From Sphingosinithalassobacter sp. CS137 (GTDB lineage: Bacteria; Pseudomonadota; Alphaproteobacteria; Sphingomonadales; Sphingomonadaceae), in contig NZ_CP060494.1 of NCBI RefSeq assembly GCF_014334115.1, forward strand, positions 2,076,501-2,140,500: 64,000 nucleotides of DNA, written 5' to 3'. The notes under the pieces are model-generated. The model saw nothing but the letters and a program-made list of their open reading frames with translations, was not told the DNA's origin and did no database searches. Both the position numbers and the translations under genes were made by a program. Shown in pieces: positions 24,826-59,459 of the stretch (the first letter of the stretch is position 1; every line of letters starts with the position of its first letter).

Positions 24826-24912
24826 GCCCAGATGGCGGAATTGGTAGACGCACCAGCTTCAGGTGCTGGCGGTCGCAAGGCCGTGGAGGTTCGAGTCCTC
24901 TTCTGGGCACCA
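24826..24912 (+). tRNA. tRNA-Leu (CAG anticodon)
   Basis: An 87-base class II tRNA with encoded CCA. The acceptor stem is GCCCAGA with TCTGGGC, the discriminator base is A. The anticodon stem CCAGC/GCTGG encloses the loop TTCAGGT, so the anticodon is CAG (leucine). A long variable arm (GGCGGTCGCAAGGCC region) and the T-loop TTCGAGTC are present. Its 3' end forms the integration site for the island that follows; the gene stays intact because the island restores the sequence. Confidence 0.97.
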
Positions 24913-24915
24913 TTT
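24891..24915 (+). repeat. Attachment site, copy 1 (tRNA-Leu 3' end)
   Basis: The 25-base stretch covering the T-arm, acceptor end, CCA and the next three bases recurs at 33966-33990 with a single C/T difference. Together they bracket a 9-kb segment that begins with an integrase gene, the classic arrangement of an element inserted at a tRNA 3' end. Confidence 0.88.
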
Positions 24916-25047: not shown

Positions 25048-25141
25048 GTGGCCCGGTTTTTGGTGGTGGCCCGCGGGCCACCGAAAGGGGGATCAACGGG
25101 CGCCTTCGATTGCGGACCAATCGAATCGAAGGATGCGTACC

Positions 25142-26347
25142 ATGCCACTGAAAGACCTGGAGATTCGGGCTCTCAAGCCGCAGGATCGGATCTACAAGCG
25201 AACGGACGAGCGCGGCCTCTATATCGAGGTGCGTCCCAACGGCTCAAAACTCTGGCGATTTAAGTACAACTTCCTCGGCAAGGACAAGCGCATCGCTTTT
25301 GGCAGCTATCCCGAGGTAGGGTTGGCCGAGGCCCGGCGGAAGCGCGACGAGTTCCGGCAGAAAGTCCGGGAAGGGATCGACCCGGTTGCTGAGCGCAAGC
25401 ACGAGAAGCTGGTCGCAAAATACAATGCCGCCAACTCGTTCGGCGAGATCGCGAAGGAATATATCGACAAGATGGTCCGCGAGGGCCGTGCCGATACTAC
25501 CACGACGAAAGCGAATTGGCTGCTCGAACAGCTCGCTCCGATCGAAACGAGCGCGATTGCCGACCTGAAGCCGGTCGATGTACTCGGCGCGCTCAAGCGC
25601 ATCGAAGCAAAAGGTAAGCACGAGACGGCGCGCCGTTGCCGCTCCTTTGCCAGCCGGGTGTTTCGCTACGGGGTCGCGACCGGGCGCTGCGAAACCGACC
25701 CGACCTCGGTGCTGCGCGGAGCGCTGGTCACGCCGAAGACGAAGCATCATGCGGCGATTCTCGATCCGAAGGCAGTCGGCGAGCTACTCCGCGCGATCGA
25801 CGCTTACTCGGGCCACCTGATCACGCGAATCGCCATGCAGGTGTCCCCCCATGTGATGGCCCGACCCGGCGAGCTCAGGCAGGCGCTGTGGCCCGAGATC
25901 GATTTAGAGAATGCCGTGTGGAAGATCCCCGCCGAGCGGATGAAGATGCGCCGGCCGCATGCCGTGCCCTTGTCTCGGCAGGTGGTGGCCTATCTTACCC
26001 AGCTTCACGAGTTGACTGGCCCGGACGGCTTCGTGTTTCCGGCGTTTCACACCTCGCGCCGGCCGCTAAGCGAGAACACCGTCAACCAGGCCTTCCGCCG
26101 CATGGGCTATGCGGTGGGCGAAGTTACCGCGCACGGCTTAAGGACGACGGCATCCACTTTGCTCAACGAGAGTGGCAAATGGAGCCCCGACGCAATCGAG
26201 CGTTCGCTCGCGCATGCCGACGCCGATTCGGTCCGGGGCACGTACAACCGCGGCTTCTACTGGGAGGAGCGGGTCGCGATGCACCAGTGGTGGAGCGACT
26301 ACCTCGATCAGCTACGGGCGGCGGTGCCATTCTCAAAGACTGCCTAA
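25142..26347 (+). CDS. int: Tyrosine recombinase/integrase, P4 type (island 1)
   Basis: 401 residues from the ATG at 25142, chosen because GAAGGA lies 8 bases before it. The N-terminus is the DUF4102 arm-binding domain (DERGLYIEVRPNGSKLWRF). The catalytic domain carries the first Arg in ARPGELRQ, HGLRTTAST, the second His in LAHADAD and the nucleophile Tyr in GTYNRGF. It would integrate and excise the 24.9-34.0 kb island at tRNA-Leu. It is homologous over its full length to the second integrase at 34153, so the two elements use related enzymes for the same site. Confidence 0.93.
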   Translation: MPLKDLEIRALKPQDRIYKRTDERGLYIEVRPNGSKLWRFKYNFLGKDKRIAFGSYPEVGLAEARRKRDEFRQKVREGIDPVAERKHEKLVAKYNAANSFGEIAKEYIDKMVREGRADTTTTKANWLLEQLAPIETSAIADLKPVDVLGALKRIEAKGKHETARRCRSFASRVFRYGVATGRCETDPTSVLRGALVTPKTKHHAAILDPKAVGELLRAIDAYSGHLITRIAMQVSPHVMARPGELRQALWPEIDLENAVWKIPAERMKMRRPHAVPLSRQVVAYLTQLHELTGPDGFVFPAFHTSRRPLSENTVNQAFRRMGYAVGEVTAHGLRTTASTLLNESGKWSPDAIERSLAHADADSVRGTYNRGFYWEERVAMHQWWSDYLDQLRAAVPFSKTA

Positions 26348-26366: not shown

Positions 26367-29300
26367 TCATTGCGAGCCCCATAGCCCTTCGGCGAGCTGG
26401 TGCAGTGAGCCGCTGTCGAGCCCCTCGACGGGTCCGTCCTTGGTAACCACCAGGCGACCGTCGGGATTCTCAGTCGACCACACCGTTATTCCCTCCGCGG
26501 CGTACCCCTCCAGCTTGCGCTCCCAGCGTCGGCGGTAGGAGGGACGCTCAAGCATACCGCAGTGCTCCCAATACCAAATGTCCGCACCCACCTCGATTGT
26601 GAAGTCGGGCCAACGCTCGATTCCGCCGAGCAGGCGCGGCTTCTCGAACGTGTATCGGAGCAATCCCCGCTGCTCGAGTTCGTGGAGAATGTCGGCTATG
26701 ACGATCTCAGACTTTGAGCTGACAAGGTCGCCTCGCCGCGTCGCGTGGATCAGCTTGTCTTCCAGGAAGGTCCGCCTCGCATGGGCGGGCTCGCCTGGGG
26801 GAGGCTCGATTGCCACGGGTCGGGGCGAAGCGAAGAGATTGGTGACGCGCCGGGCTGTCTCCGAATGATATTCCGAGCGGAAGCGCAGGAAACCGCCGAA
26901 TGGGCCCTGATGGAGGATCCAGATGCGGTCCTTCTGCCGCGTGAGGGCAGTGTAAAGTAGCTCGCGGGTGAGTAGCCTGCTGTGCCGCGGCAGGACGAGC
27001 AGTGTGGTCCCGAACTCGGACCCTTGGGCCTTGTGGACCGTGACCGCGTAGCCGAGTTCGAGCAGCGGAGAGGCGTGGTCGGAGAAGTCGCGTCGAGAGA
27101 AGCTGTAGGTGTCGCCGAGCTGGGTGGCGAACTCGATTTGGGTGAAACGTGGGTACTTGTATCCGGCCTGCCCGACGACGACGCCGACCTCGCCGTTAGC
27201 GAGATAGCCGTCGTGGGCTTCGCCCTCCGCCCAATCCCACCGCTTGCGACCATGATTGCGTAGGCAGATGACCTTGTCGCCATAGGTGATCTCGTCCGAA
27301 CCTCTCGGTTCGATCATTTTGAATTGGCGTTCCCGGTCCCTCACCGAGTCCAGCCGCCTCGAGCGGGCCACTCGCTTCACATGGCGGTTCAGATCGGCCG
27401 AGCCGCCCGGCAGATCGCGGTGGGGCGTGAGGATTTGCCACCGCTCAGCGGCGGCGCCGGCTCCAACATTAAAGTATGGGAACTCGTCCTCCGTCCCGCC
27501 CAGCGAGATCTCCACGGCGCGTTCGAGGTCGCCGGCAGTACAATCCAACTCCGTTTCCAGCGCTTCCGCAACGCACTGACGCAGCCGGTCAGACGTATCC
27601 CACTCGAGGAGGCGCAGCCGGTCGCCCGACGGAAGGCCCGCGATCTCGTCCTCACCGGGCCCGTCCGCCGCGCCCGCGAAGAGGGCGGCGAGTTGCACGT
27701 CTTCGAGTGCGTCGGCCGCCACCGATCCATCGACTCCAGTTTGGCGGCGACTGATGCGCAGTCTAGCCACGCCTACGCCTCCCGCGGTTTCCTCAAGGTG
27801 CGCGATGAGGTCGACGAACGGGCGGCCGGCGCCGATCGGCGGCAGCTGCTTTGGATCGCCGACGAGAATCAGGCGGGCCGTCGTCGGCAAAGCGCTGACG
27901 AGCGCCGCAAATTGGTCCTCGGTGAGCATTGAGGCCTCATCGACAATGCACGTCGAGATGCGCGCCGTCGGTCCGGTCCGGGGAAAGCAATGAACGCCGG
28001 TGTCAGGATCCCACCGCTGTTGCTCGAGGAGGAACTGGGCGAGGGTCCTGGCTGCGTTGGGCATGCCGGTCTGGACGCCGAGGCGGACGCGAGCCTTCCC
28101 CGTCGGTGCCAGAAGCGCGACATCATTGCCGACTATGGAGCGTCTGCCGAGGAGGACCTTGAGCAGCGTCGTCTTCCCCGAACCGGCGGGGCCGAGCAGA
28201 ACTGCGACGCGCGATGATGCAAGCGTCGCCAGCGCCTCGGCCTTTTCCTGGCGCGCGGCGTGTTCGAGCTCATCGCTCCGTGCCGCTTTCCGTCGCTCCT
28301 CGGTTAGGCCGCCGTCGAGCGCCGCGTCGAGGAGCTCGCGCCAGCCGGCATCGGTCGTGTCCAATCCGCCCGAAAGCCGCGCCTTGATCGCGCGGCCGAT
28401 GACAAGGCGCGTCTCGACGTATCGTTCGAGCTGGGCATACCACTCACCGTCAAGCTCGGAGACGTCCACCTCCGGGTTGAACTCGTCAGCGAGGAGCTCG
28501 AGCGTGAGCTCGTCGATCGGCGCCGTGGGAGAGAGCGGGAGCTCCGCTACGCGTTCGGCCAGGACCTTCGCCGGCACCAGCGTGCTGCCCGCCGCAGCGG
28601 CGCCCTCGAGCGCTGCGATCGAAGCCGCCAGGAGCCTGTGCCAGTCGTCGGGTTCGAGCGGATTCACTTCGCACTCGTCGGGCAACGGCCACGCCTCACG
28701 GATGGGGCCGCCCGCCTGTATGCCCCGGTCGACCGTTCCGAGGCCGATCGGCGCCAGCGTGAAACGCGAACGCTGGAAGAGCTCATACGGATTGCGCACA
28801 TAGTCTTCCGTCCGCTCCGCGTCCCACGCTTCGAACGCCTGGTCCCGGCTCAGCTCGAAGCGCGACAGCGTCTGCATGAGCCGATAGCGGGAGGGTTCTT
28901 TCATGCGAATGTGCTCGCAGCGCTTGCGCTGCATTCCGGTCAGCGCCGGAGCGCCGGCGGGCGGCGGGCGCACGCCGGCGAAAATCTCCTCGACGACTGG
29001 CCAGGGGTTCGCGCCTTCGTCGAGAAACGGTGCCAGCGCATGCGCGAACAACGTCCCGTTGAAGGCGTTGGGCTGCACGCAGCTGAGCGCGCTGCCCAAC
29101 CCGGGCGCGGGGCCCCGCAGCGTCCAGAGCTCGCTGATACGGGCGTCGATCCAGTCGATCGCCTCCGCCCAGCGCCCCGGGATGATAGTCTCGATGCGCT
29201 CGAGAGCGTTGCGCACGGACTGAAGTGCCGCGATGGCGCTTCCGTGTTCCACGTGCTCGCTGCCGTAGAGGAACTGCTCGCGCAATTCCTCGGGCGCCAG

Positions 29301-30113
29301 AGCCAGATACTGGGCCGGCTCGATCTCTGAATTGCTCTCGGCGAGGGAGAGTATCTCCTGATATGGCAGGACAACGCCACCCGAAAACCCGTGCTCGCCG
29401 CGCCGCAGCGAGTGCTGGAAGGGACGCTCCCAGATCATCGACCGGACGCGCCCGCCCGCAGCGCCGCCGGCATAGGGATATTCGTCCACCTTGCCGACAT
29501 GCTCGACCCGGGCCACCGCCACGATGGGACTTCCGAGCCCGTCGGCCAAGGGTGTTCGGCGCGCATAGAAAAAGACGAGCGACGTCTCGGGCTCGAGCGG
29601 GTCGGCGAACGCCTCCAGCATAGTTCGCTGGTTCTCAACCTCCTGGATCCATGCCGTCTTCGACATGAAGCCAGGGAAGTCCGGTGATTGCGGCTCGCGG
29701 TCCAGGTCGAGGTCCAGGCCGAGGTCCTTGGCCAGTTGCTCCGCCGGCTCGCGGAGCATCCAGCGGTAGGGCACGACGACGCCTCCCCACGCCGGCAGCT
29801 GCACGGTCGTCGGCCGGATGTGCCGGTGGAGGTCGCTCCAGCTCGAATAGGGCATCTGGATCGAGAGCGGCTGGGCGCGGCCCGACAGGAACGCTGATCG
29901 CTCCCGCACGCACGGCGGCAGGCGGCTTGGCTCGAGGTTCTCGAACGCCTCGCCTGCATGGCATTGCTCGAACTCGTCGTTTTTTCCCTCTGCGATCAGG
30001 CTGACGGCAAGGCATGCCGTGTTCGCTTTGGGGTTGCGGCAGATTGTGCCATCCCACCCACCGTCGTGCCATGGAACCCGCACCGAGAGGTGGCGTGCGT
30101 TTGCGCCCTTCAA
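26367..30113 (-). CDS. RecD-like SF1 helicase with C-terminal nuclease-like domain
   Basis: 1248 residues. The start is a TTG with a strong AGGGGGA ribosome site. Residues 1 to about 600 form an unrecognised region, including a block with FFYARRTPL and WERPFQHSLR. The helicase core follows: Walker A GPAGSGKTT (Lys647), DEAS box (Asp725-Glu726), VGDPKQLPPIG, and VTVHKAQGSEFG near 1028 with YTALTRQKDR. The last 130 residues look like a PD-(D/E)XK-type nuclease: Glu1136 (SKSE), Asp1170 (PDF), Glu1183 (WEHCG) and a later W-x2-K. Such a helicase-nuclease fusion next to an integrase fits a DNA-targeting defence protein. It is not RecD of RecBCD, because no RecB or RecC is present. It lies downstream of the AlpA gene. 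Confidence 0.8.
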   Translation of the reverse strand: MKGANARHLSVRVPWHDGGWDGTICRNPKANTACLAVSLIAEGKNDEFEQCHAGEAFENLEPSRLPPCVRERSAFLSGRAQPLSIQMPYSSWSDLHRHIRPTTVQLPAWGGVVVPYRWMLREPAEQLAKDLGLDLDLDREPQSPDFPGFMSKTAWIQEVENQRTMLEAFADPLEPETSLVFFYARRTPLADGLGSPIVAVARVEHVGKVDEYPYAGGAAGGRVRSMIWERPFQHSLRRGEHGFSGGVVLPYQEILSLAESNSEIEPAQYLALAPEELREQFLYGSEHVEHGSAIAALQSVRNALERIETIIPGRWAEAIDWIDARISELWTLRGPAPGLGSALSCVQPNAFNGTLFAHALAPFLDEGANPWPVVEEIFAGVRPPPAGAPALTGMQRKRCEHIRMKEPSRYRLMQTLSRFELSRDQAFEAWDAERTEDYVRNPYELFQRSRFTLAPIGLGTVDRGIQAGGPIREAWPLPDECEVNPLEPDDWHRLLAASIAALEGAAAAGSTLVPAKVLAERVAELPLSPTAPIDELTLELLADEFNPEVDVSELDGEWYAQLERYVETRLVIGRAIKARLSGGLDTTDAGWRELLDAALDGGLTEERRKAARSDELEHAARQEKAEALATLASSRVAVLLGPAGSGKTTLLKVLLGRRSIVGNDVALLAPTGKARVRLGVQTGMPNAARTLAQFLLEQQRWDPDTGVHCFPRTGPTARISTCIVDEASMLTEDQFAALVSALPTTARLILVGDPKQLPPIGAGRPFVDLIAHLEETAGGVGVARLRISRRQTGVDGSVAADALEDVQLAALFAGAADGPGEDEIAGLPSGDRLRLLEWDTSDRLRQCVAEALETELDCTAGDLERAVEISLGGTEDEFPYFNVGAGAAAERWQILTPHRDLPGGSADLNRHVKRVARSRRLDSVRDRERQFKMIEPRGSDEITYGDKVICLRNHGRKRWDWAEGEAHDGYLANGEVGVVVGQAGYKYPRFTQIEFATQLGDTYSFSRRDFSDHASPLLELGYAVTVHKAQGSEFGTTLLVLPRHSRLLTRELLYTALTRQKDRIWILHQGPFGGFLRFRSEYHSETARRVTNLFASPRPVAIEPPPGEPAHARRTFLEDKLIHATRRGDLVSSKSEIVIADILHELEQRGLLRYTFEKPRLLGGIERWPDFTIEVGADIWYWEHCGMLERPSYRRRWERKLEGYAAEGITVWSTENPDGRLVVTKDGPVEGLDSGSLHQLAEGLWGSQ

Positions 30114-30384: not shown

Positions 30385-30591
30385 CTATCTATCTGCGTCG
30401 GCAGCATATCCCTTCGGGCTGCGCATCCAGGCTTCGACGGCGGACTGGCGCCAGCCGATGCAGCGATCGCTGATCTGGATACTGCTCGGAAAGCTGCCCT
30501 CCTGCATCTTGCGATACATGGTCGAGCGGCTGAGGCCGGTACGATCGAGCACGGCCTTGAGGCGAAGGATGCGGTCGGGGGTGTCGGACAT
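30385..30591 (-). CDS. AlpA-family regulator
   Basis: 68 residues with the MerR-like helix-turn-helix of AlpA/excisionase proteins: RLKAVLDRTGLSRSTMYRKMQEG, then FPSSIQI and GWRQSAVEAWM. Such proteins switch on integrase or excision genes in islands and P4-like elements. It lies 18 bases after the DUF2274 gene, on the same strand as the helicase 271 bases downstream. The gap 30114-30384 shows no other gene. Confidence 0.85.
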   Translation of the reverse strand: MSDTPDRILRLKAVLDRTGLSRSTMYRKMQEGSFPSSIQISDRCIGWRQSAVEAWMRSPKGYAADADR

Positions 30592-30609: not shown

Positions 30610-30825
30610 TCAGGACTTGGGGCGCGAGCGCGCGAAGACCTGGTCGCTGTCGAGGAAGCTCTGGAGCATGTGGGGGACGAGGTCGGCGACGCTCGCCGTC
30701 TCGCCATAGGTCTCGCGATAGGCTTCGGCATAGGCGGCCAGCGACTGGTGCAGGTCGGGAAGGACCATGATCGCAATCTTGACCGGGGTACGGTCGGGGA
30801 TGCGCGCGAGGCGAAGGTCGGGCAT
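30610..30825 (-). CDS. DUF2274 family protein
   Basis: 71 residues (MPDLRLARIPDRTPVKIAI, then LHQSLAAYAEAYRETYGE) matching the small DUF2274 family that is normally encoded directly after trbI in IncP-type conjugation clusters. A ribosome site AAAGGAG and a 12-base gap follow the stop of a trbI remnant, as in intact clusters. Its function is unknown; here it survives without the rest of the transfer genes. Confidence 0.75.
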   Translation of the reverse strand: MPDLRLARIPDRTPVKIAIMVLPDLHQSLAAYAEAYRETYGETASVADLVPHMLQSFLDSDQVFARSRPKS

Positions 30826-32082: not shown

Positions 32083-32130
32083 ATTGAAGAATTATCCACG
32101 GTGGCGTATAGCGGCCATTGGAGACGACCG

Positions 32131-32382
32131 ATGGCCCCAATTGCGCGTACCCCCAAGCAGCTCGGCGAAGCGTTGCGACGCTACCGCACACAGGCGAAGC
32201 TCAACCAATCCCAAGTCGCGGCGAAAGCAGGTCTGCGTCAGGCAACGATCTCGCAAATCGAAAGTGGGCACGGTGCGGCAAAGATCGAGACGATCTGTGC
32301 CATCCTGGCGGCGCTAGATCTCGAGCTCGCGATCACCCCCCGTTCGAAGAGCAGCTCGGAGGATATCGAGGACATCTTCTGA
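32131..32382 (+). CDS. hipB: HipB-type antitoxin, Xre family
   Basis: 83 residues from the ATG at 32131, preceded by GGAGA; the earlier GTG at 32101 lacks a site. A Cro/C1 helix-turn-helix covers about residues 8-65 (LGEALRRYRTQAKLNQSQVAAKAG, then QATISQIESG). Its stop overlaps the hipA start in TGATG, typical of a toxin-antitoxin pair. It should bind HipA and the palindrome upstream. Confidence 0.88.
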   Translation: MAPIARTPKQLGEALRRYRTQAKLNQSQVAAKAGLRQATISQIESGHGAAKIETICAILAALDLELAITPRSKSSSEDIEDIF

Positions 32383-33737
32383 TGCCCCGCAAAGCCGCTC
32401 GCGCCCCTCTTAACGTCTTCCTGAACAACCGCCATGTCGGCCGACTGACGCGGCAGTCGAGCGGGGCGATCGACTTCGCCTATGATCCAAGCTGGCTCGG
32501 ATGGGAGAACGCCATCCCAGTGTCGCTCTCGCTGCCGTTGCGCGAGAACCGCTATCTCGGTGACCGGGTCACGGCGGTATTCGAGAACCTCCTGCCCGAC
32601 TCAAAACCGATCCGCACCCGCGTCGCGGAACGCCTGGGGGCTCAGGGTACCGATGCCTTCAGCCTGCTCAGCGAAATCGGCCGCGACTGTGTCGGCGCTC
32701 TGCAGTTCATGGCTGTCGACGAGCTTCCGCCACCAACCACCGCGGTCGATGGGATCGAGATCGGCGAGGACGAGATCGCCGGCATCGTGGCGAACCTCGC
32801 GCGCGCGCCCCTAGGCCTCGACAGGGAAGACGACTTCCGCATCTCCGTCGCCGGAGCGCAGGAAAAGACGGCGCTGCTGCGCCACGAGGGAAAATGGCTG
32901 AAGCCGACCGGCACGACGCCGACCACGCACATCCTCAAGCCCCAGATCGGCGAACTGCCGAACGGCATCGACCTGTCAAACAGCGTCGAGAACGAATTCT
33001 ACTGTCTCAAGCTGATGGAAGTGTTCGGGCTGGCAGCGAACGAAGCGGAGATCGCCACCTTCGGAGCAACCAAGGTTCTCGTCGTCACGCGCTTCGACCG
33101 GCGCTGGACCCGTGACGGGAGACTCCTCCGGCTCCCGCAGGAGGATTGCTGTCAGGCGCTTTCGGTCGCACCGGCTGGCAAATATGAAAGCGAAGGCGGC
33201 CCCGGCATCGCGGCGATCGCCAATCTGCTCGCCGGAAGCGACGATCCGTCGGGCGACCGGCTCGCCTTCTTCAAGGCGCAGCTGCTGTTCTGGCTGATCG
33301 GCGCGACGGATGGCCATGCGAAGAACTTCAGCATCTTCCTGGCGCCGGGCGGCCGCTTTCGCATGACGCCTTTCTATGATGTCCTTACCGCGCAGCCGAG
33401 CCTCGATGCGCACCAGATCCGCCGGAACCAGTTCAAGCTGGCGATGGCGGTCGGCAATTCACGGAAATATCGAATCTTCGATATTCATGGACGGCATTTC
33501 GCGGAGACGGGCCGCGCCGCAGGACTGTCGACGCAGCTCATCGGCCAAGCGATCGACGATATCCGGCAAGGATTCGATCGGGCATTCTCGGCCGTCGAAG
33601 CCGTGTTGCCAGCGCATTTCCCGGAAGCCATTCACGCGACGGTCCTGTCGGGCGCTCGTGATCGCCTGGCCCGCCTCGCAACCGCCGACGGGGAATTGGG
33701 ACGAGGCGGCTCCTCGGAACCAGCCCGGCAGGGTTGA
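32382..33737 (+). CDS. hipA: HipA-type serine/threonine kinase toxin
   Basis: 451 residues, normal HipA length. Kinase residues align with E. coli HipA: autophosphorylated serine equivalent Ser155 (ISVAGAQEK), ATP lysine Lys186 (HILKPQ), catalytic Asp310 and Asn315 (TDGHAKNFS) and metal Asp333 (FYDVL). HipA phosphorylates glutamyl-tRNA synthetase, halts translation and induces persistence; other HipA relatives use other synthetases. All key residues are intact, so it should be active. It is the last gene of island 1. Confidence 0.9.
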   Translation: MPRKAARAPLNVFLNNRHVGRLTRQSSGAIDFAYDPSWLGWENAIPVSLSLPLRENRYLGDRVTAVFENLLPDSKPIRTRVAERLGAQGTDAFSLLSEIGRDCVGALQFMAVDELPPPTTAVDGIEIGEDEIAGIVANLARAPLGLDREDDFRISVAGAQEKTALLRHEGKWLKPTGTTPTTHILKPQIGELPNGIDLSNSVENEFYCLKLMEVFGLAANEAEIATFGATKVLVVTRFDRRWTRDGRLLRLPQEDCCQALSVAPAGKYESEGGPGIAAIANLLAGSDDPSGDRLAFFKAQLLFWLIGATDGHAKNFSIFLAPGGRFRMTPFYDVLTAQPSLDAHQIRRNQFKLAMAVGNSRKYRIFDIHGRHFAETGRAAGLSTQLIGQAIDDIRQGFDRAFSAVEAVLPAHFPEAIHATVLSGARDRLARLATADGELGRGGSSEPARQG

Positions 33738-33965: not shown

Positions 33966-33990
33966 TCGAGTCTTCTTCTGGGCACCATTT
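33966..33990 (+). repeat. Attachment site, copy 2 (island 1/island 2 boundary)
   Basis: Repeats the tRNA-Leu 3' end of 24891-24915 with one C to T change, including the CCA and the following TTT. It is the right end of island 1 and also lies 162 bases before the integrase of island 2, so it serves as the left end of the second element. Confidence 0.88.
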
Positions 33991-34152: not shown

Positions 34153-35370
34153 GTGCCATTGACCGATAGCCAGCTCAAAGCGCTCCGTCCTAAAAACAAG
34201 CCTTACAAGGTCGCAGACGAGCGCGGCCTGTATGTCGAAGTCACGCCGATAGGTAGCAAGCTTTGGCGCTTCCGCTACCGAGTCGGGAGAACCGAGAAGA
34301 AGCTTTCGATCGGCACCTATCCCGACCTCAGCCTAAAAGAGGCGCGCAACGCAGCGCTCGAGGCGCGTCTAGCGGTATCCAAGGGCGGTGATCCTGCGCT
34401 CGAGAAGCGCAAGCAGAAGATCCGGGCTGAATTCATCGCGGGGATCACATTCGAAGAGGTGGCAAGAGAATACATCGACCAGATGATGGCCCGCAATGGC
34501 AGGGCCGATGCGACGCTGCTCAAGGCCAACTACTTCCTCGACAAGCTGGTTCGCTCGATCGGGAAACGACCGCTCGAACAGATCGAGCCATTTGAGGTGC
34601 TCGCCCCGCTCAAACGCCTCGAAGCGGCAGGCAAGCACGAGACGGCGAAGAAATGTCGCTCCTTCGCCAGCCGGGTGTTCCGCTTCGGCGTTGCCACCGC
34701 GCGTTGCGCGGGCGATCCGACGAGCCTCCTCAAAGGGGCTTTGATCACGCCCAAGGTAAAACACTACGCCGCGATCCTTGAGCCCGACGAACTCGGCGGC
34801 CTCTTGCGGGCGATCGACGACTATACCGGCCACCCGATTACGAAGTATGCGCTGCTGGTCGCACCGCATGTCTTCGTCCGTCCGGGCGAGCTCCGCCACG
34901 CCGAGTGGAGCGAGTTCAACTTCGAGGCAGGCGTCTGGAAGATCTCGGAAGGCAAGATGAAGTCGCGCCGCGCCCACGCTGTGCCCCTGTCGAGCCAGGT
35001 GATCGCCTACCTGAAGGAGCTGGAGGCAATGCTTGGCTCAGAAGGATACGTGTTCCCATCCGCGCGATCGGAAACGCGTCCCATGAGCGAGAACACCCTC
35101 AACGCGGCGTTCCGCCGAATGGGATTTTCGAAAGAAGAAGTCACTGCCCATGGCCTGCGCGCCACCGCCTCGACCATGCTCAACGAGTGCGGGCTATGGA
35201 GCGCAGATGCGATCGAGCGGGCGCTCGCCCATGGCGACAGTAACGCGGTGCGGGGCATCTATCACCGAGGAAAGCACTGGGATGAACGGGTGCGCATGGC
35301 CCAATGGTGGAGCGACAACCTGGACCAGCTGAGAGCTGGCGGCCGCATCCTCAACCTTCGGGCCGGATGA
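34153..35370 (+). CDS. int: Tyrosine recombinase/integrase, P4 type (island 2)
   Basis: 405 residues starting at a GTG with GAGAAAGG upstream. It has the DUF4102 arm-binding domain (DERGLYVEVTPIGSKLWRFRY). The catalytic residues are Arg in VRPGELRH, HGLRATAST, His in LAHGDSN and Tyr in GIYHRGK. It shares long identical runs with the integrase at 25142 (for example CRSFASRVFR), showing common descent. It should act at the same tRNA-Leu site for island 2. Its stop abuts the stop of the convergent small gene. Confidence 0.93.
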   Translation: MPLTDSQLKALRPKNKPYKVADERGLYVEVTPIGSKLWRFRYRVGRTEKKLSIGTYPDLSLKEARNAALEARLAVSKGGDPALEKRKQKIRAEFIAGITFEEVAREYIDQMMARNGRADATLLKANYFLDKLVRSIGKRPLEQIEPFEVLAPLKRLEAAGKHETAKKCRSFASRVFRFGVATARCAGDPTSLLKGALITPKVKHYAAILEPDELGGLLRAIDDYTGHPITKYALLVAPHVFVRPGELRHAEWSEFNFEAGVWKISEGKMKSRRAHAVPLSSQVIAYLKELEAMLGSEGYVFPSARSETRPMSENTLNAAFRRMGFSKEEVTAHGLRATASTMLNECGLWSADAIERALAHGDSNAVRGIYHRGKHWDERVRMAQWWSDNLDQLRAGGRILNLRAG

Positions 35371-36290: not shown

Positions 36291-37202
36291 ATGCAGGCCC
36301 GAAGTGAAGGTCAGAACACACAATCCCTCGAAGCAACTGCTCGGCAGCTCTGCAAAAGCCGCGGCGGGCGCTGGTCCGGTTCCAAGGGCATGGCCCGGTG
36401 CCCGGCGCACGATGATCGCACCCCTTCGCTCGGCGTCACCCTGGGACGACGTGCTATCCTGTTCCATTGCTTTGCCGGCTGCGATCAAGCGAGCGTGATT
36501 GACGCTTTCAGAAGGGAGGGGCTTTCCCCCGCGCAGCTGTTCGGCAGCTCTCCGCTGAATGCCGGAGAATCGACGATAGAGCGGTCGCCATCGCAAGGTG
36601 TGCTCCGGACATGGCATAGCGCCTCGCCCCTGAACGGCAGTCCGGCCAAAGCTTATCTCGAGGCGCGCGGTATCACGGCTGTCTCGCCCGCGCTGCGCTT
36701 CAACAGTCGAACGCCTCTCGGACCCAAAGGCCGCGCGCAGTTCCTGCCAGCGATGATTGCAGCCGTCAGCCTCGACGAAGGTCCGATCGCTATTCACCGA
36801 ACATTTCTCGATGCGGAGGCGCCCAGGCTCGCGGCATTCGACGGCCCGAAGCGTGCACTCGGTGCGCTCCGATCGGCCGCCGTCCGACTGTTCCCAGCGA
36901 TTGATAGAGTGCTGGGCATTGCCGAAGGTGTTGAAAGCGCGCTCTCGGCCCGTGCACTCACCGGCGTTCCATGCTGGGCAACGCTTGGTAATGAGCGCTT
37001 TGCGCTCGTCTCGATCCCCGAGAGTGTCACCGAGCTCCATCTCTTTGTCGATTACGATGCAGGCGGCCAATTGGCCGCGGAACGCGCGCTCCAGAGCCAT
37101 GCGCTCGAAGGCCGGACCATCCATGTCCGGCGTCCTTCAAAGCGCGAAACGGACTGGAACGACGAACTGGTGAACTGGCTCGCCCGCAAGCGGGCTTCGT
37201 AG
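36291..37202 (+). CDS. Zinc-finger/Toprim protein (primase-like, DUF7146 type)
   Basis: 303 residues. An N-terminal zinc-binding motif (Cys37, His40, Cys60, Cys64 in ARCPAHDDRTPS and FHCFAGC) resembles the CHC2 finger of primases. A C-terminal Toprim domain shows GIAEGVESALSA and FVDYDAGG. This combination occurs in plasmid and island proteins of the DUF7146/TraC-like primase group, probably acting on DNA during transfer or replication. It is the first gene of a rightward group with the SBNO and ParB genes. Confidence 0.8.
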   Translation: MQARSEGQNTQSLEATARQLCKSRGGRWSGSKGMARCPAHDDRTPSLGVTLGRRAILFHCFAGCDQASVIDAFRREGLSPAQLFGSSPLNAGESTIERSPSQGVLRTWHSASPLNGSPAKAYLEARGITAVSPALRFNSRTPLGPKGRAQFLPAMIAAVSLDEGPIAIHRTFLDAEAPRLAAFDGPKRALGALRSAAVRLFPAIDRVLGIAEGVESALSARALTGVPCWATLGNERFALVSIPESVTELHLFVDYDAGGQLAAERALQSHALEGRTIHVRRPSKRETDWNDELVNWLARKRAS

Positions 37203-37273
37203 AGAAGAGAGAGCTTTGGCCTCGTGATCGGCAGAAGGCTTCGTGCCCGATGCCTCCATCAGGAGGACCAACA

Positions 37274-40200
37274 ATGCTTCAGTTCGAATTTTTAGAACCC
37301 GACGCTGAACCTCATGCCCAGCCCTTGGCGGCGACGATCGGCGAACAAATAGCCTCTCGTCTGGCCGACGGCTGCCACCTTACGCGTAGCTCCATTTCTG
37401 CGCTCTTTGCCGAAGAGACCGGGATCCAGACCTGGGGGACGGGTTGGTCCATCGACGACTACAACGATGCGATCGAGATCGGCGCGCTCCTGTGGCTGAA
37501 GTCTCACGGCCGGATTACGCTCGGTACCGCGATCCGTGAAGCGGACGCGCGCTTTGAATGGCTCGAAACCGCCTTGCCCCCCCGCCATGTGCGTAGCGAG
37601 GCGCAGATCGAGCTGCAGCAGTTCTCGACCCCGCCCATGCTGTCCTGGCTCATGGCGCAAGCGGCTCAGCTTCGCTCATCCGATCAGGCCCTCGAGCCTT
37701 CGGCAGGTAACGGCGCGCTTGCCCTATGGCCGGCTGTTCAAGGCTCCGACCTCACGCTCAACGAGATCGATCCTGCTCGCCGACAGTCACTTGCCCATCT
37801 GTTTTCCGACGCAGCAGTGACCGCTCACGACGGTGAGGTCATCGATCATCTCCTGACCCACAGGCCGCCGACCGTCGTCCTCATGAATCCGCCGTTTGCG
37901 CGCAGTCGTGAGCGCGGGGTCAGTGCGGCAACGGCGTTGCGCCATCTTCGCAGCGCATTCCGTCTTTCGAAGAGAGGCGCTCGCCTCGTCGCGATCATGC
38001 CGGAAGGTTTCGATGCGTCTCGCTTCGCCAGCTCATTGAGCGATGCCAGGCTGCGGCTCGATGTGCGCATCGCCGGCGCGTTCCGGAGGAACGGCACAGG
38101 CATTCGCGTGCGCATGGTGGTGTTCGACAAGGCCGTCGACGGCCTACCGGTGGTCACTGCGGAAGCGGACGATTTGTCCGATCTGGCAACGCTGATCGGC
38201 CGACTCCCGCCGCGCGCTCGCGATACTCCGGAAATTCCCGTGCTGACCGCGCGGCCCGCGACCGGCACTTTGAGAAAGCCAGCGAACGCCCGGCCCGCGG
38301 CTCCGTTTGGAACTCGCCCTGCAACTGGCGAGCCGTTCGAAGAGCTCGGCTATGTGACGCTGGATGAGCCCGCGCCCGTCCCGGAGCAGACAGGGATCTA
38401 TCTTCCCTATCGCCCGAGCCGGGTTCAGATCGGAGGCGCGCCGGTCCATCCGACGCCGCTTGTGGAATCCATCGCGATGGGGTCGGTCGCGGCTCCGATA
38501 CCGGCCGTGCGGCCAAAGCTGCCCGCCAACTGGCGGGCCCGCCAACTGCTTTCCGAAGCCCAACTCGAAACGCTCGTCTATGCCTGCGAGGCGTTCTCGC
38601 ACGATCTGCCAGGACGCTTCCGAGCCACCCAGGAAGGAACCACGCTCGAGCAGGCCGAGGATGGAGCCCGTTACCGTCAGGGCTTTTTCCTCGGCGACGG
38701 CACTGGAGCGGGAAAGGGGCGACAGATCGCGTCGGTGATCATGGATCGCTGGCTTGCCGGCGAACGCCGACACATCTGGATCACGAAGAATGAGGCGCTG
38801 CTCGAGGATGCCCGCCGCGACTGGGAAGCACTCGGCGGCATGCGCCTCGACATTCAGCCACTCTCAGCTTGGAAGCTGGGAGCACCGGTTCGTTGGTCCC
38901 AGGGCATCCTCTTCATTACTTATCCGACGCTTCGCTCGGGTCGCGCAGACGATACGCGGCTTGACCAGATACTCGCCTGGACCGGCGATGATTTCGAAGG
39001 CGTGATCGCGTTCGATGAGGCCCACGCGATGGCCAATGCCATAGGCAGCCGTAACGCGCGCGGCGCTTCGAAAGGCTCCGAACAGGGCATGGCCGGACTA
39101 AGACTGCAGAACCGGCTTCCTCGCGCCCGGATCCTCTACGCTTCGGCTACCGGCGCTTCGGACATTTCCAACCTCGGATATGCGACCCGCCTCGGCTTGT
39201 GGGGAGCCGAAACCGCGTTCCCGACACACGAGGCGTTCACGACCGAAATCCGGGCAGGCGGTGTCGCGGCGATGGAGCTCGTCGCCAGGGATCTCAAGGC
39301 TCAGGGCCTATATCTTTCCCGCGCTTTGTCATTCGCGGGAGTCGAGTACGAAATCCTCGAGCACCGGCTGACCGATGCGCAGATCGCCATCTACGATGCC
39401 TATGCCGAAGCCTGGGCGATCATTCATCGCAACCTCGACGAGGTGCTTCAGGCGACGCGAATAGTCGATGAGGACAGCGGCGACACACTCAACCGCAACG
39501 CCAAGGCTGCTGCGCTGTCCATTTTCGAAGGCACCAAGCAGCGGTTCTTTGCGCAGCTCCTGCTCTCGATGAAACTCCCGAGCCTGATCCCCGCGATGGA
39601 GGAGTCGCTCGCGACCGGCCACTCGCTCGTCGTGCAGCTGGTCTCGACCGCCGAGGCGATGCTCGACCGCCGCTTGGCCGATCTGACTCCCGAGGAACGC
39701 GAAGCGCTCGATATCGACCTTTCGCCGCGCGAGTATGTCATCGACTATCTCGCCAAGAGCTTCCCCACTCGTCTGATGCAGGTCTTCACCGACGAAGACG
39801 GCAATCTGCGTTCCGAACCGATGAGCAACGACGATGGCAATCCGGTCATGTGTCCACGCGCCGTCGCCGCGCGCGATGCGCTGATCGAACAGCTCTGCGC
39901 CCTGCCGCCGATCGCAACTGCGCTCGATGCGATCATCGAACACTTCGGAACCGGCACCGTCGCCGAAGTTACGGGTAGGACGAGACGGCTGATTCTTGGG
40001 CGGGACGGACAGCAGCGGCTCGAACGCCGCGGCGGGTCCGCCAACGTTGCCGAGGCTCAGGCCTTCATGGATGGTGCCAAGCGCATCCTTGTCTTTTCCG
40101 ACGCCGGCGGGACGGGCCGTTCCTACCACGCCGACCTTAATTGCCAGAACCGGCAGCGGCGCGTGCATTTCCTGCTCGAGCCGGGGTGGCGCGCCGACAA

Positions 40201-41506
40201 TGCGATACAGGGTCTGGGGCGGACCAACCGCACCAACCAGGCGTCGGCGCCGCTCTTCCGACCTGTGACCACGGATGTGAAGGGTGAGCGGCGGTTCATC
40301 TCGACGATCGCGCGGCGGCTCGACAGCCTCGGCGCGCTTACCCGCGGACAGCGGCAAACGGGTGGACAGAACCTGTTCGATCCGGCGGACAATCTAGAAA
40401 GCGATTACGCCAGAGATGCGCTGAGCCGCTGGTTCCACCTGCTCTACGATGGCAAGCTCGAGGCGACAAGCTTCGCCGATTTCGTGCGCCAGACCGGCCT
40501 ACGGCTTGAAGGTCCCGAGGGCGGTCTTACGGACGACCTGCCCTCGATCCAGCGCTGGCTCAACCGCGTGCTCGCGCTGCCGATCGGGATGCAGAACGCG
40601 ATCTTTGACGAGTACCTCGCCCTCATCGAAGCGCGCATAGAGGCTGCGCGCGAAGCGGGAACACTCGATCTCGGGCTCGAAACGCTCAAGGTCGACAGCT
40701 GTAGAGTAATTTCGGATCAGATCATTCGGACCGACCCGTTGACCGGCGCTGAAACTCGCCTTCTCTCGCTGGAAATCGAGCGGCACTTGCGGCCCCTGCG
40801 CTTTAAGCGGCTCGCGCGGCTGCATGACATTGACTCGCCTGGTGTCATACCACTCCACAATGCCCGTTCGGGGCGGGTGGCGCTCAGCGTTCCCGCGCGC
40901 CGTTTGATTGCCGACGATGGAAGTGTGATCGAGCGGCGGCGTCTGCTGCGTCCGCTCAAATCCGCCAACTGGACCCGCGAGGCGCTCGCCGAAAGCGCCT
41001 GGGAGGCTATCGATCCGGCTTCGTTCGAACGTCTCTGGCGCGCCGAAGAGATCGAAGCCGCCAAGGAGCCGGTCCGCGAACGGGTGCACCTTGCAACCGG
41101 GCTGCTACTCCCGGTCTGGAAGCGCCTGCCCGGCGATCACGTGCGCGTGACCCGTATCGTCTCGGCCGACGGCTCCTCCATTATCGGCCGCGAGGTGGTG
41201 GCCGCGGATATCGTCAAGGTGTCGCAGACCTTCGGCCTAGGAAACCCTGTCTTGCCTACTTCCGGTGAACTGGCCGCTCTCGTCCTCTCGAGCGGCACCG
41301 CACAGTCCTTGCAGAGCCATGATCCGCTGACCGTCAAGCGCAGCCTCGTCGGCGGCGAGCAGCGCATCGAGCTGACTGGCTTCGCGCCCGATCGGCTCGA
41401 GTGGTACAAGGCCAAAGGCTGCTTCACCGAGATCATCCGCTACCGGACGCGCCTGTTCGTGCCGGTGGCCAATGGAGCGGCTATTCTTGAAGCGCTCGCT
41501 CCCTGA
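37274..41506 (+). CDS. Strawberry-notch-type methylase/helicase fusion
   Basis: 1410 residues from the ATG at 37274, which follows AGGAGGACC. A methyltransferase-like domain comes first (LEPSAGNGALAL near 139, VLMNPPFARS near 204). A superfamily 2 helicase core follows (GDGTGAGKGRQ near 474, FDEAHAMANA near 580). The C-terminal strawberry-notch domain contains GGTGRSYHAD near 945 and QGLGRTNRTNQ. Such giant proteins are frequent on alphaproteobacterial plasmids and islands. They may protect, remodel or modify element DNA, but no activity is proven. It lies between the Toprim and ParB genes, which probably form one operon. Confidence 0.87.
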   Translation: MLQFEFLEPDAEPHAQPLAATIGEQIASRLADGCHLTRSSISALFAEETGIQTWGTGWSIDDYNDAIEIGALLWLKSHGRITLGTAIREADARFEWLETALPPRHVRSEAQIELQQFSTPPMLSWLMAQAAQLRSSDQALEPSAGNGALALWPAVQGSDLTLNEIDPARRQSLAHLFSDAAVTAHDGEVIDHLLTHRPPTVVLMNPPFARSRERGVSAATALRHLRSAFRLSKRGARLVAIMPEGFDASRFASSLSDARLRLDVRIAGAFRRNGTGIRVRMVVFDKAVDGLPVVTAEADDLSDLATLIGRLPPRARDTPEIPVLTARPATGTLRKPANARPAAPFGTRPATGEPFEELGYVTLDEPAPVPEQTGIYLPYRPSRVQIGGAPVHPTPLVESIAMGSVAAPIPAVRPKLPANWRARQLLSEAQLETLVYACEAFSHDLPGRFRATQEGTTLEQAEDGARYRQGFFLGDGTGAGKGRQIASVIMDRWLAGERRHIWITKNEALLEDARRDWEALGGMRLDIQPLSAWKLGAPVRWSQGILFITYPTLRSGRADDTRLDQILAWTGDDFEGVIAFDEAHAMANAIGSRNARGASKGSEQGMAGLRLQNRLPRARILYASATGASDISNLGYATRLGLWGAETAFPTHEAFTTEIRAGGVAAMELVARDLKAQGLYLSRALSFAGVEYEILEHRLTDAQIAIYDAYAEAWAIIHRNLDEVLQATRIVDEDSGDTLNRNAKAAALSIFEGTKQRFFAQLLLSMKLPSLIPAMEESLATGHSLVVQLVSTAEAMLDRRLADLTPEEREALDIDLSPREYVIDYLAKSFPTRLMQVFTDEDGNLRSEPMSNDDGNPVMCPRAVAARDALIEQLCALPPIATALDAIIEHFGTGTVAEVTGRTRRLILGRDGQQRLERRGGSANVAEAQAFMDGAKRILVFSDAGGTGRSYHADLNCQNRQRRVHFLLEPGWRADNAIQGLGRTNRTNQASAPLFRPVTTDVKGERRFISTIARRLDSLGALTRGQRQTGGQNLFDPADNLESDYARDALSRWFHLLYDGKLEATSFADFVRQTGLRLEGPEGGLTDDLPSIQRWLNRVLALPIGMQNAIFDEYLALIEARIEAAREAGTLDLGLETLKVDSCRVISDQIIRTDPLTGAETRLLSLEIERHLRPLRFKRLARLHDIDSPGVIPLHNARSGRVALSVPARRLIADDGSVIERRRLLRPLKSANWTREALAESAWEAIDPASFERLWRAEEIEAAKEPVRERVHLATGLLLPVWKRLPGDHVRVTRIVSADGSSIIGREVVAADIVKVSQTFGLGNPVLPTSGELAALVLSSGTAQSLQSHDPLTVKRSLVGGEQRIELTGFAPDRLEWYKAKGCFTEIIRYRTRLFVPVANGAAILEALAP

Positions 41507-56549: not shown

Positions 56550-59459
56550 ATGCTCTCTGTCGCCAATGTCCGCTCGCCGTCGGCCGCCGCGAGCTACTTC
56601 GCCGCTGACAATTACTACGCCAGAGCCGATGCCGACCGGTCGGGCCAGTGGATCGGCAAAGGCGCCGATCTGCTGGGCCTGAAGGGCCGCGTCGAGACCA
56701 AAGCCTTCGATGCGCTGTTGCGCGGCGAGCTACCCGACGGATCGAACGTCGGCAATCACGGCCAGTGGCATCGGCCCGGCACCGACCTCACCTTTTCGCT
56801 GCCCAAGAGCTGGTCGCTGCTGGCTCTCCTCGGCAAGGACGAGCGGATCGTCGAAGCCTACCGCGAAGCGGTCATCGAGACGCTCGCCTGGGCGGAAAAG
56901 AATGCTGCCGAAACCAGGCTAGTCGAGAAGGGGCAGGTGCGCACGGTCGCCACCGGCAACCTTGCCATCGGTCTGTTCCAGCACGACACCAACCGCAACC
57001 AGGAGCCCAATCTGCATTTTCATGCGGTCGTCGCCAACGTGACTCGGGGCCCCGACGGAGTGTGGCGCACGCTCAAGAACGACCGGCTATGGTCCCTGAA
57101 CACGCTCCTCAATTCGATCGCGATGGCGCGGTTTCGCACGAGCGTCGAGAAGCTCGGCTACGAGACCGGTCCGGCGCTCAAGCACGGCAATTTCGAGGCG
57201 CGCGGGATCGGCCGCGAACAGCTGATGGCATTCTCCACCCGGCGGCAGGAAGTGCTCGATGCGCGCCGTGGCTCGGGACTGGAGGCCGGGCGGATTGCCG
57301 CCTTGGCGACCCGTTCAGCGAAGGAGGCGATCGAGGATCGCGGCGCGCTCGCCGTTCGCTGGGATCAGGCGGCAAAGGAGATCGGTCTTGACCTCGAGCC
57401 GCTGGTCGAATCCGCGCATCTGCGGGCGGCGTCGCAGGAGAGGGAGGCCGCGCGGCCGGCCACACTGGTCGAGCGCGGTATCGCCCGCCTGCGGGAATTT
57501 GCCGCGCGCATTTCGGGCGAAGAGCGCGACCCGCTGGTGCCGAGCCATGTCTTGAAGAAAGGTCCCGAAGCCATCGCGGCGGCGCAGGCGGTCGCCTCTG
57601 GCGTGCGCCATCTCTCACAGCGCGAGGCAGGCTTCGAGCGCGAAGCGCTTTACAAGGCGGCGCTCGACTTCGGTCTGCCGACGACGATCTCCCACGTCGA
57701 AACCGCCGTCCGCTCACTGGTCCGCTCGGGCCATCTTCTGGAGGGGACGGGCAAGCACAGGGGCTGGGTCACGAGCCGTGAGGCGGTTGAAGTCGAGACG
57801 CGCATCCTTGCCTGGGCGGCCGAAGGCAAAGGCGCGATCGAGCCCGGTATCGCGGAAAGTGAGGCAACCAGCCGCGTCCAGGCGTCGGCCCAGGTCAACC
57901 ACGGGTTCAAGCTCAACGAGGGACAACTCGGCGCCGCCCGGCTGATCCTGTCCTCGACTGACCGAACCATCGCCATTCAGGGCGTGGCAGGCGCGGGCAA
58001 GTCGAGCGTCCTCAAGCCGGTGGCCGAAGTGCTGCGCGAAGAAGGACATCCGATGATCGGCCTCGCGGTGCAGAACACGCTGGTGCAGATGCTCGAGCGG
58101 GACACGGGCATTCGTTCACAGACTCTCGCGCGGTTCCTCAAGGACTGGGGCAAGCTGATCGACGAGCCGGGAAATGGCCCTAGTCACAATGAGGCGAAGG
58201 CAGCCTTGAGGGACTATATCCTGGTGCTCGATGAGGCCTCGATGGTCTCGAACGCAGACAAGGAACAGCTGCTCCGCATCGCCAACCTGGCCGGCGTGCA
58301 CCGCCTGGTCCTGATGGGCGATCGCAAGCAGCTCGGAGCGGTCGATGCCGGAAAGCCGTTCGCGCTGCTTCAGCAGGGCGGGATCGCCAAGGCAGAGATG
58401 AACACCAATCTGCGCGGCCGCGACCCCGTTCTCCGGCAGGCGCAGGCGGCCGCACAGGCAGGTCTTGTGCGATCGGCGCTCGACCATCTCAAGGAGCACA
58501 CCGTCGAAACCGAGGGCGAGGGCGCGATCGTCGCGGCGGAACACTGGCTCGCGCTTCCCCCCTCTGAGCGCAAGCACACAGCGATCTATGCCTCGGGCCG
58601 CAACATTCGCTCTGCGGTCAACGAGGCGGTCCAACGCGGCCTGCAGGCGAACGGAGAAATCGGCCCCGAGAAGATCGCACTCGACATGCTCGATCGCGTG
58701 AACTTCACCCGCGAGGAATTGCGTTACCTAGCTGCCTACCGGCCAGGCATGGTGCTTGAGGTCGCGAAGGCGGAGCGTACCTTGGGGCTCAAGCGCGGCG
58801 AGTATGCTGTCTGCGGCATCGATGAGGCGAAAGGCATCGTTCGGCTTGAGGACGAGCGCGGCCGGCAGCATGCGTTTAGGCCAGCCCGGATGCAGAAGGC
58901 CGACAAGGACGGCAATCTGGTGCTGTTCGAACGGCGCGAGCTCGAAATTCACCGTAGCGACCAGATCCGCTGGACGCGCAACGATCACCAGCGCGGACTG
59001 CTCAATGCCGACCGCGCCAAGGTCGTTTCAATCGAGCGGGGTCGGTTGACGGTCGAGACCTCGAAGGGCGAGCAGCTCCAGCTGAAGCAGGGAGACCCGA
59101 TGCTGAAGCGGATCGATCTCGCCTATGCGCTCAACGCGCACATGGCGCAGGGGCTGACATCCGACCGGGGCATCGCCGTCATGGACAGCCGCGAGCGCAA
59201 TCTCTCGAACCAGCAGACGTTTCTGGTGACCGCGACGCGTCTGCGCGATCATCTGACGCTGGTGGTAGACAGCGCGGCGAAGCTGGCAGGCGCGGTGGCA
59301 CGCAACAAGGGCGAGAAAGCTTCGGCGCTGGAGGTGATCGAGCGCCTGCGAAATGCCGCTGCTATCGGAGTGTCGAAGGGCCTTGGCGAGCAGCCGGGGC
59401 GCGATACCGAGCGTGAACTGTCTCGCGAAAAGACCCGGGCAATCGATATCGGGATTTAG
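56550..59459 (+). CDS. mobF: MobF family relaxase/helicase (TrwC/TraI type)
   Basis: 969 residues. The relaxase domain has the tyrosine pair Tyr22/Tyr23 (NYYARAD) and the three-histidine metal site His145, His156, His158 (FQHDTNRN, PNLHFHAV). The helicase part shows Walker A GVAGAGKSS (about 480), VLDEASMVS, LMGDRKQLGAVDAG and a C-terminal NAHMAQGLTSDRG with VTATRLRDHL. It nicks oriT, stays bound to the 5' end and unwinds the strand for transfer. All catalytic residues are intact. Shorter than F TraI, like TrwC. Confidence 0.95.
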   Translation: MLSVANVRSPSAAASYFAADNYYARADADRSGQWIGKGADLLGLKGRVETKAFDALLRGELPDGSNVGNHGQWHRPGTDLTFSLPKSWSLLALLGKDERIVEAYREAVIETLAWAEKNAAETRLVEKGQVRTVATGNLAIGLFQHDTNRNQEPNLHFHAVVANVTRGPDGVWRTLKNDRLWSLNTLLNSIAMARFRTSVEKLGYETGPALKHGNFEARGIGREQLMAFSTRRQEVLDARRGSGLEAGRIAALATRSAKEAIEDRGALAVRWDQAAKEIGLDLEPLVESAHLRAASQEREAARPATLVERGIARLREFAARISGEERDPLVPSHVLKKGPEAIAAAQAVASGVRHLSQREAGFEREALYKAALDFGLPTTISHVETAVRSLVRSGHLLEGTGKHRGWVTSREAVEVETRILAWAAEGKGAIEPGIAESEATSRVQASAQVNHGFKLNEGQLGAARLILSSTDRTIAIQGVAGAGKSSVLKPVAEVLREEGHPMIGLAVQNTLVQMLERDTGIRSQTLARFLKDWGKLIDEPGNGPSHNEAKAALRDYILVLDEASMVSNADKEQLLRIANLAGVHRLVLMGDRKQLGAVDAGKPFALLQQGGIAKAEMNTNLRGRDPVLRQAQAAAQAGLVRSALDHLKEHTVETEGEGAIVAAEHWLALPPSERKHTAIYASGRNIRSAVNEAVQRGLQANGEIGPEKIALDMLDRVNFTREELRYLAAYRPGMVLEVAKAERTLGLKRGEYAVCGIDEAKGIVRLEDERGRQHAFRPARMQKADKDGNLVLFERRELEIHRSDQIRWTRNDHQRGLLNADRAKVVSIERGRLTVETSKGEQLQLKQGDPMLKRIDLAYALNAHMAQGLTSDRGIAVMDSRERNLSNQQTFLVTATRLRDHLTLVVDSAAKLAGAVARNKGEKASALEVIERLRNAAAIGVSKGLGEQPGRDTERELSREKTRAIDIGI

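Follow-up and report, generated by a model that had tools for sequence, protein, structure and literature searches.

A PDC-S68 family protein from an integrative island of Sphingosinithalassobacter sp. CS137: a RecD-type motor, a PD-(D/E)XK-fold nuclease and a probable YTH/EVE-like domain in one chain

EVE and YTH domains are described as specificity modules of type IV and prokaryotic restriction systems (PMC7641849, PMC11090510), and BrxU is reported to sit beside BREX (PMC8565348). In this study, we analyzed a 64,000-nucleotide window of the Sphingosinithalassobacter sp. CS137 genome (contig NZ_CP060494.1, positions 2,076,501 to 2,140,500; all coordinates below are those of the window) and, within it, a gene on a small island bounded by attachment (att) repeats. 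Judged by its profile match, the gene product is a full-length member of PDC-S68, a catalogued single-gene phage defence candidate. It joins a motor and a nuclease in one chain, and its relatives sit in and beside restriction-modification (R-M) and BREX operons. For PDC-S68, until now only a candidate name to us, the analysis supplies a map of the domains, a trigger that can be tested and point mutations with which to probe each step.

Motor and nuclease of the PDC-S68 protein

The PDC-S68 gene (26367..30113, minus strand) is a real open reading frame (ORF) of 1248 aa that begins with TTG, with AGGGGGACGAC directly before it. Against PADLOC model PDLC05065 (PDC-S68), the protein scored 1321.3 bits (E=0), residues 5-1242 lying on positions 4-1216 of the 1221 in the profile; two sister PADLOC models also matched it (430.7 and 369.7 bits). 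Because that profile covers residues 5-1242, the family is already catalogued as a phage defence candidate, and the initial annotation, which was right about a single 1248-residue ORF, is not supported in its suggestion that the protein is undescribed. The PADLOC entry carries neither a description nor a mechanism. Neither the name nor this architecture was found in the literature searched, which excludes subscription papers and most preprints, and the main text of the DefensePredictor paper mentions neither RecD nor helicase.

The motor is an intact superfamily 1 (SF1) helicase of RecD type, as had been annotated. Its core (residues 607-1068; 26910..28295, minus strand) was identified by Pfam (AAA_30 at 623-804 and UvrD_C_2 at 1021-1066), by TIGR01447 (RecD; residues 614-1067) and by a PDB sequence search in which RecD2 and RecD structures were matched, and it is preceded by RecD2-like N-terminal domains (residues 343-586; 28356..29087, minus strand). 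K647, D725-E726, R790, Q1030 and R1059 are each found in 80/80 relatives, these being the best 80 of 484 found in a scan of a genome collection. Three familiar identities were tried and rejected: the RecD2 equivalog (TIGR01448, 175.1 bits versus a cutoff of 500), the RecD subunit of RecBCD (TIGR01447, 144.7 bits versus 310.15) and a TraA/MobA relaxase-helicase (TIGR02768, 84.6 bits over the helicase part only versus 590.45, with no relaxase Pfam domain). RecB or RecC partners, whose absence had also been annotated, were not seen in the island. The host genome has its own AddA, which makes it unlikely that the RecD-like motor belongs to the host end-processing enzyme.

The C-terminal nuclease-like domain of the initial annotation was confirmed as a fold: residues 1121-1248 (26370..26753, minus strand) adopt the restriction endonuclease-like core of the PD-(D/E)XK superfamily, with a variant active site (K1134/E1136, D1170, E1183-H1184 and K1200). 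E1136 is conserved in 79/80 relatives, D1170 in 80/80 and E1183 in 79/80. Strand 3 does not carry the canonical (D/E)-X-K triad, H1184 being present in 80/80 relatives and residue 1185 being C, L or N in 80/80; K1134 and K1200 are candidates for the displaced lysine of the variant site. A search for this nuclease with other partners gave 65 matches (in proteins of 0.55 to 1.75 times the query length) and no other architecture by the listed Pfam domains. In a genome of the same genus, a 948-aa UvrD-like helicase (L240:666-3512, minus strand) has an inserted PDF...EH segment like that of the PDC-S68 nuclease, which we read, by eye, as a nuclease of this type joined to a different motor.

Relatives and their defence neighbourhoods

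The order of N-terminal domain, motor and nuclease is constant in 80/80 relatives. All 80 (1218-1393 aa) match from query residue 1-8 with an intact ORF over the match, and their best-segment identity is 36-65%. They come from alpha-, beta- and gammaproteobacteria, Firmicutes, Bacteroidetes, Actinobacteria, Cyanobacteria, Planctomycetes, Chloroflexi, the archaeon Methanolobus and others; we infer that the family is sporadic and widely transferred. The host genome and 99 further genomes, 60 of which belong to its genus, were scanned with up to six candidates scored in each, and the full-length protein was found only in the host; matches elsewhere covered just the helicase core or a short piece of the C terminus. 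Among 5.8 billion proteins searched, 7998 candidates were scored, of which 1178 were at E<=0.001 and 120 were listed; set A1 retained 58 of 113 rows after a 72% identity filter. A mainly phage- or plasmid-borne gene is ruled out in the collections searched, where 5 of 72,556 plasmid records (E<=1e-60) and 2 of 50,697 phage records (E<=1e-20; both short and unannotated) matched.

That PDC-S68 genes sit in and beside R-M and BREX operons was shown statistically. Nine clusters of restriction or helicase type were counted within six genes of the family member, and 47/80 loci have at least one of them, compared with 1/40 control windows scanned with the same profiles, the one match being an SNF2 helicase; the controls came from 11 genomes of a single phylum and the foreground from many, and the hidden Markov models were built from foreground neighbours, with labels assigned by eye and only the representatives checked. 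This is the proximity to defence genes that the initial annotation had proposed checking. By locus, the clusters are SNF2 helicase (29), HsdM (15), HsdS (13), HsdR (10), a type III-like methylase (9) and others with fewer loci. The profiles cross-match helicase domains, in that 4 of 30 SNF2-matching genes also match another profile; without the SNF2 and ATPase-helicase profiles, plus a fourth methylase cluster, the counts are 33/80 versus 0/40. Among loci with at least 10 flanking genes, 33/47 have a counted gene; the other 14 of these 47 well-flanked loci lack any, which weighs against such an association. Once identified, the representatives were HsdM, HsdS and HsdR, methylases of the type III, type III-like and type ISP kinds, a restriction subunit of type III, and DrmD, BrxC and BrxHI. 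Among the nearest neighbours (set A5, 97 of 126; 25 of 177 families listed), DrmD (PDLC02623) occurs in 7/97 and a type I methyltransferase (PDLC03029) in 3/97.

The arrangement of these genes is operon-like. Of 90 distinct counted neighbour genes, 76 lie on the same strand as the PDC-S68 gene, and 11 of 30 same-strand junctions of <=30 nt are overlaps of 4 nt (e.g., in L040, L063 and L079, with hsdM upstream, and in L049, with drmD downstream), although starts and overlaps are approximate, since gene calling relied on a greedy longest-ORF rule. Because many relatives sit inside restriction operons, the PDC-S68 protein is probably an antivirus enzyme, a defence role supported by context. The stand-alone action initially envisaged fits the island studied here but is not a rule for the family, which is often embedded in restriction or BREX operons and has a DNA methyltransferase of the counted clusters within six genes in 30/80 loci. 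In L012 (5105-9877, minus strand), and also in L013, L019 and L090, a protein that looks by eye like a sacsin-like ATPase with a DEAD-type helicase adjoins the PDC-S68 gene; the 1590-aa L012 protein had no PADLOC match at 1e-60 and is possibly an uncatalogued partner. Proteins that by eye are Hsp70-like lie near the family member in L014 (6447-8318), L049 (16893-18524; no Pfam match at 1e-6) and L082.

The N-terminal domain and what it may read

The first 330 residues (29124..30113, minus strand) probably form a YTH/EVE-like domain of the PUA superfamily. The predicted model has a mean local confidence score (pLDDT) of 93.7, and 13 of 50 structure search rows span residues 1-7 to 299-328. Each of the 13 is a protein of YTH or EVE type; they include the YTH domain of MRB1 in complex with N6-methyladenosine RNA, and VcaM4I, a restriction enzyme. 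With residues 343-586 being RecD2-like, the novelty first proposed for about 600 N-terminal residues is not supported. Foldseek alone found nothing for this domain at E<=0.001. Likewise, neither Pfam YTH nor Pfam EVE matched any of 74 N-terminal domains at E<=10 (set A4: 71 of the 80 genome loci, the window and two viral-contig loci; set A6 comprises 52 of these rows); the 12 Pfam families that appeared at E<=10 were each in at most three members, none of them plausible. PDB sequence searches by profile, using the whole domain or residues 148-320, gave one chance-level row each. A Pfam YTH search across 100 genomes of the phylum found no match, but it is uninformative because no control matched either.

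The 74 domains share 20 invariant positions, five of them Trp. All 74/74 domains and 80/80 relatives have W155, F169, Y183 and W228, together with Y or W at residue 212; on conservation, W155, Y212 and W228 are candidates for an aromatic pocket. We take W155-x5-N161 to resemble the YTH motif; residue 161 is N in 80/80 genome relatives, and L101 and L102, distant members on viral contigs, have R there. A long insertion that separates the first strand from W155 carries C25, C34 and C68, invariant in 80/80, which with the nearly invariant H16/D17 (29910-30041, minus strand) may form a zinc or iron-sulphur site. A distant branch (L101 and L102, both in viral-contig records, and P0138, P0140, P0147 and P0149) has 22-28% identity; the members read keep W15, W20, C25, C34 and W155, with R in place of N161. 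As for the domain on its own, a search limited to proteins of about 95-303 aa and a few slightly longer gave 24 matches without Pfam domains, and the five scanned were pieces of PDC-S68 proteins.

The explanation we favour, to which we give a nearly even chance, is that this is a one-protein DNA restriction enzyme whose N-terminal domain reads the modification state of a target base. Its starting point is a motor and a nuclease observed in one chain of constant architecture, with conserved catalytic residues and a defence neighbourhood; reading, loading, polarity and cutting are what we infer. The YTH/EVE-like domain would choose its target according to how a base lodged in the aromatic pocket is modified, and binding would load or release the RecD2-like motor. 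The motor would then move 5'-3' along one strand, if the polarity of RecD2 applies, and the C-terminal domain would cut the DNA as it passes. Because the family accompanies N6-adenine-methylating systems (type I, type III, type ISP and BREX), the likeliest trigger may be a phage base modification that these partners cannot attack, on the model of BrxU beside BREX, rather than N6-methyladenine itself, which would endanger hosts whose partner systems write it. Should the reader work, a motor of recombination type would serve as a restriction enzyme steered by a YTH/EVE-like fold. Encoded within the very operons that base-modifying phages evade, it would counter those phages directly. We propose more tentatively that YTH-type reader, RecD2-like motor and PD-(D/E)XK fold make up a new, single-chain, modification-gated restriction class. 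Such enzymes, often encoded inside R-M and BREX operons of the N6-adenine-methylating kind, would either kill phages whose modified bases overcome these systems or use host N6-methyladenine as a pass mark. We have not met the reader assignment, or its link to N6-adenine-methylating systems, elsewhere.

Sequence support for such a reader is thin but in register: in a profile comparison with 21 EVE sequences (21 of 25 loci), FFYA...IVGVGRV aligned with FFYH...IVGI.EV, a local match of only 21 columns (pair P of 0.014 for the whole domain and 0.008 for residues 148-320), and this alone is no proof, because the best of 40 unrelated profiles reached 0.019 against the whole domain. The weak evidence for a reader favours a defence helicase-nuclease that senses no modification and is triggered, like HamAB, DruE or RecBCD, by DNA ends, single-stranded DNA or replication intermediates of the invader, with an N-terminal domain that does no more than clamp DNA or bind a partner. 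The same motor and nuclease evidence supports it, and DruE and HamAB offer precedents; nevertheless, we think it rather unlikely, given the 20 invariant positions with five Trp and the fact that structure rows across the N-terminal span hold only YTH and EVE proteins.

The methyltransferases near 30/80 relatives, of types whose product is usually N6-methyladenine, suggest a different logic, in which the nuclease is held in check when the YTH-like domain binds N6-methyladenine of the host itself, unmarked DNA being degraded. YTH proteins do read this mark (PMC7641849). However, 50/80 loci have no counted methyltransferase, none was seen in the island itself, and one protein would need to read marks of differing sequence context, so that we regard this scheme as improbable. 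We find it harder still to credit a target in RNA or the translation apparatus, since RecD-type motors and PD-(D/E)XK nucleases usually act on DNA and the neighbours are DNA restriction systems. Such a target has been proposed for the YTH-bearing CoCoNuTs, whose YTH-like domains are predicted to bind RNA (PMC11090510). Equally slight is the chance that the protein is a helicase for maintenance, transfer or repair of a mobile element rather than for defence: the gene does lie in an att-bounded island with AlpA and DUF2274, and TraA relaxases contain RecD-like helicases, but there is no relaxase domain, the TraA match reaches 84.6 of the 590 bits needed, and many relatives are beside or inside R-M operons.

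The island and known defence systems

The island (9.1 kb) was integrated at a tRNA-Leu (CAG) gene (24826..24912, plus strand). The left copy of the 25-bp att repeat (24891..24915, plus strand; 2 matches, 0 expected) overlaps the tRNA 3' end and the right copy (33966..33990, plus strand) ends the island; a 21-base pattern of the repeat has only two exact places genome-wide, the two att copies. Apart from the PDC-S68 gene, the island contains a tyrosine integrase (25133..26347, plus strand; Pfam Arm-DNA-bind_3, Phage_int_M and Phage_integrase), an AlpA-type regulator or excisionase (30385..30591, minus strand; Phage_AlpA, 67.2 bits versus a cutoff of 21), a DUF2274 protein (30610..30825, minus strand; 87 bits versus 23.8), a weak MarR-like protein and a hipBA-like pair (32101-33737), the only other defence genes. 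The pair comprises a HipB-like antitoxin (32101..32382, plus strand; Pfam HTH_3, with TIGR03070 at 51.3 bits, below its cutoff of 71.65) and a HipA-like kinase toxin (32388..33737, plus strand; HipA_C, 171 bits, and Couple_hipA, 99 bits). A second integrase (34153-35370) starts just past the right att repeat, and a larger element follows, with a Toprim/DUF7146 protein (36291-37202), a Strawberry-notch helicase-like protein (37250-41506) and an ORF with a RecD-like core (56550-59459) that is probably a TraA-type relaxase. We read 34153-64000 as a tandem integrative element; its far end either falls beyond the window or is marked by a repeat that has diverged.

Among known systems, PDC-S68 as catalogued by PADLOC resembles the protein over its full length, with no difference seen. 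With RecD2 (an SF1B helicase; TIGR01448 and 3gp8) it shares the motor and the helical/winged-helix N-terminal domains but, unlike RecD2, has an extra 340-residue N-terminal domain and a C-terminal nuclease (175 bits versus 500). Hachiman HamAB and Druantia DruE likewise act on invader DNA as helicase-nucleases; their helicases are of superfamily 2, whereas PDC-S68 has an SF1 RecD-type motor and a YTH/EVE-like front domain. The DUF499/BREX-related RM-like systems occupy a similar type of neighbourhood, with an SNF2 helicase and an N6-methyltransferase, and the available main text on them does not mention RecD or include PDC-S68 among the core components described (PMC12839542). By analogy, BrxU/GmrSD and the type IV EVE-McrBC systems may share the proposed logic of a reader coupled to nucleoside triphosphate-driven cutting, beside BREX or R-M; with modification dependence as a proposal, PDC-S68 differs from both in combining a RecD-type SF1 motor with another nuclease in a single chain.
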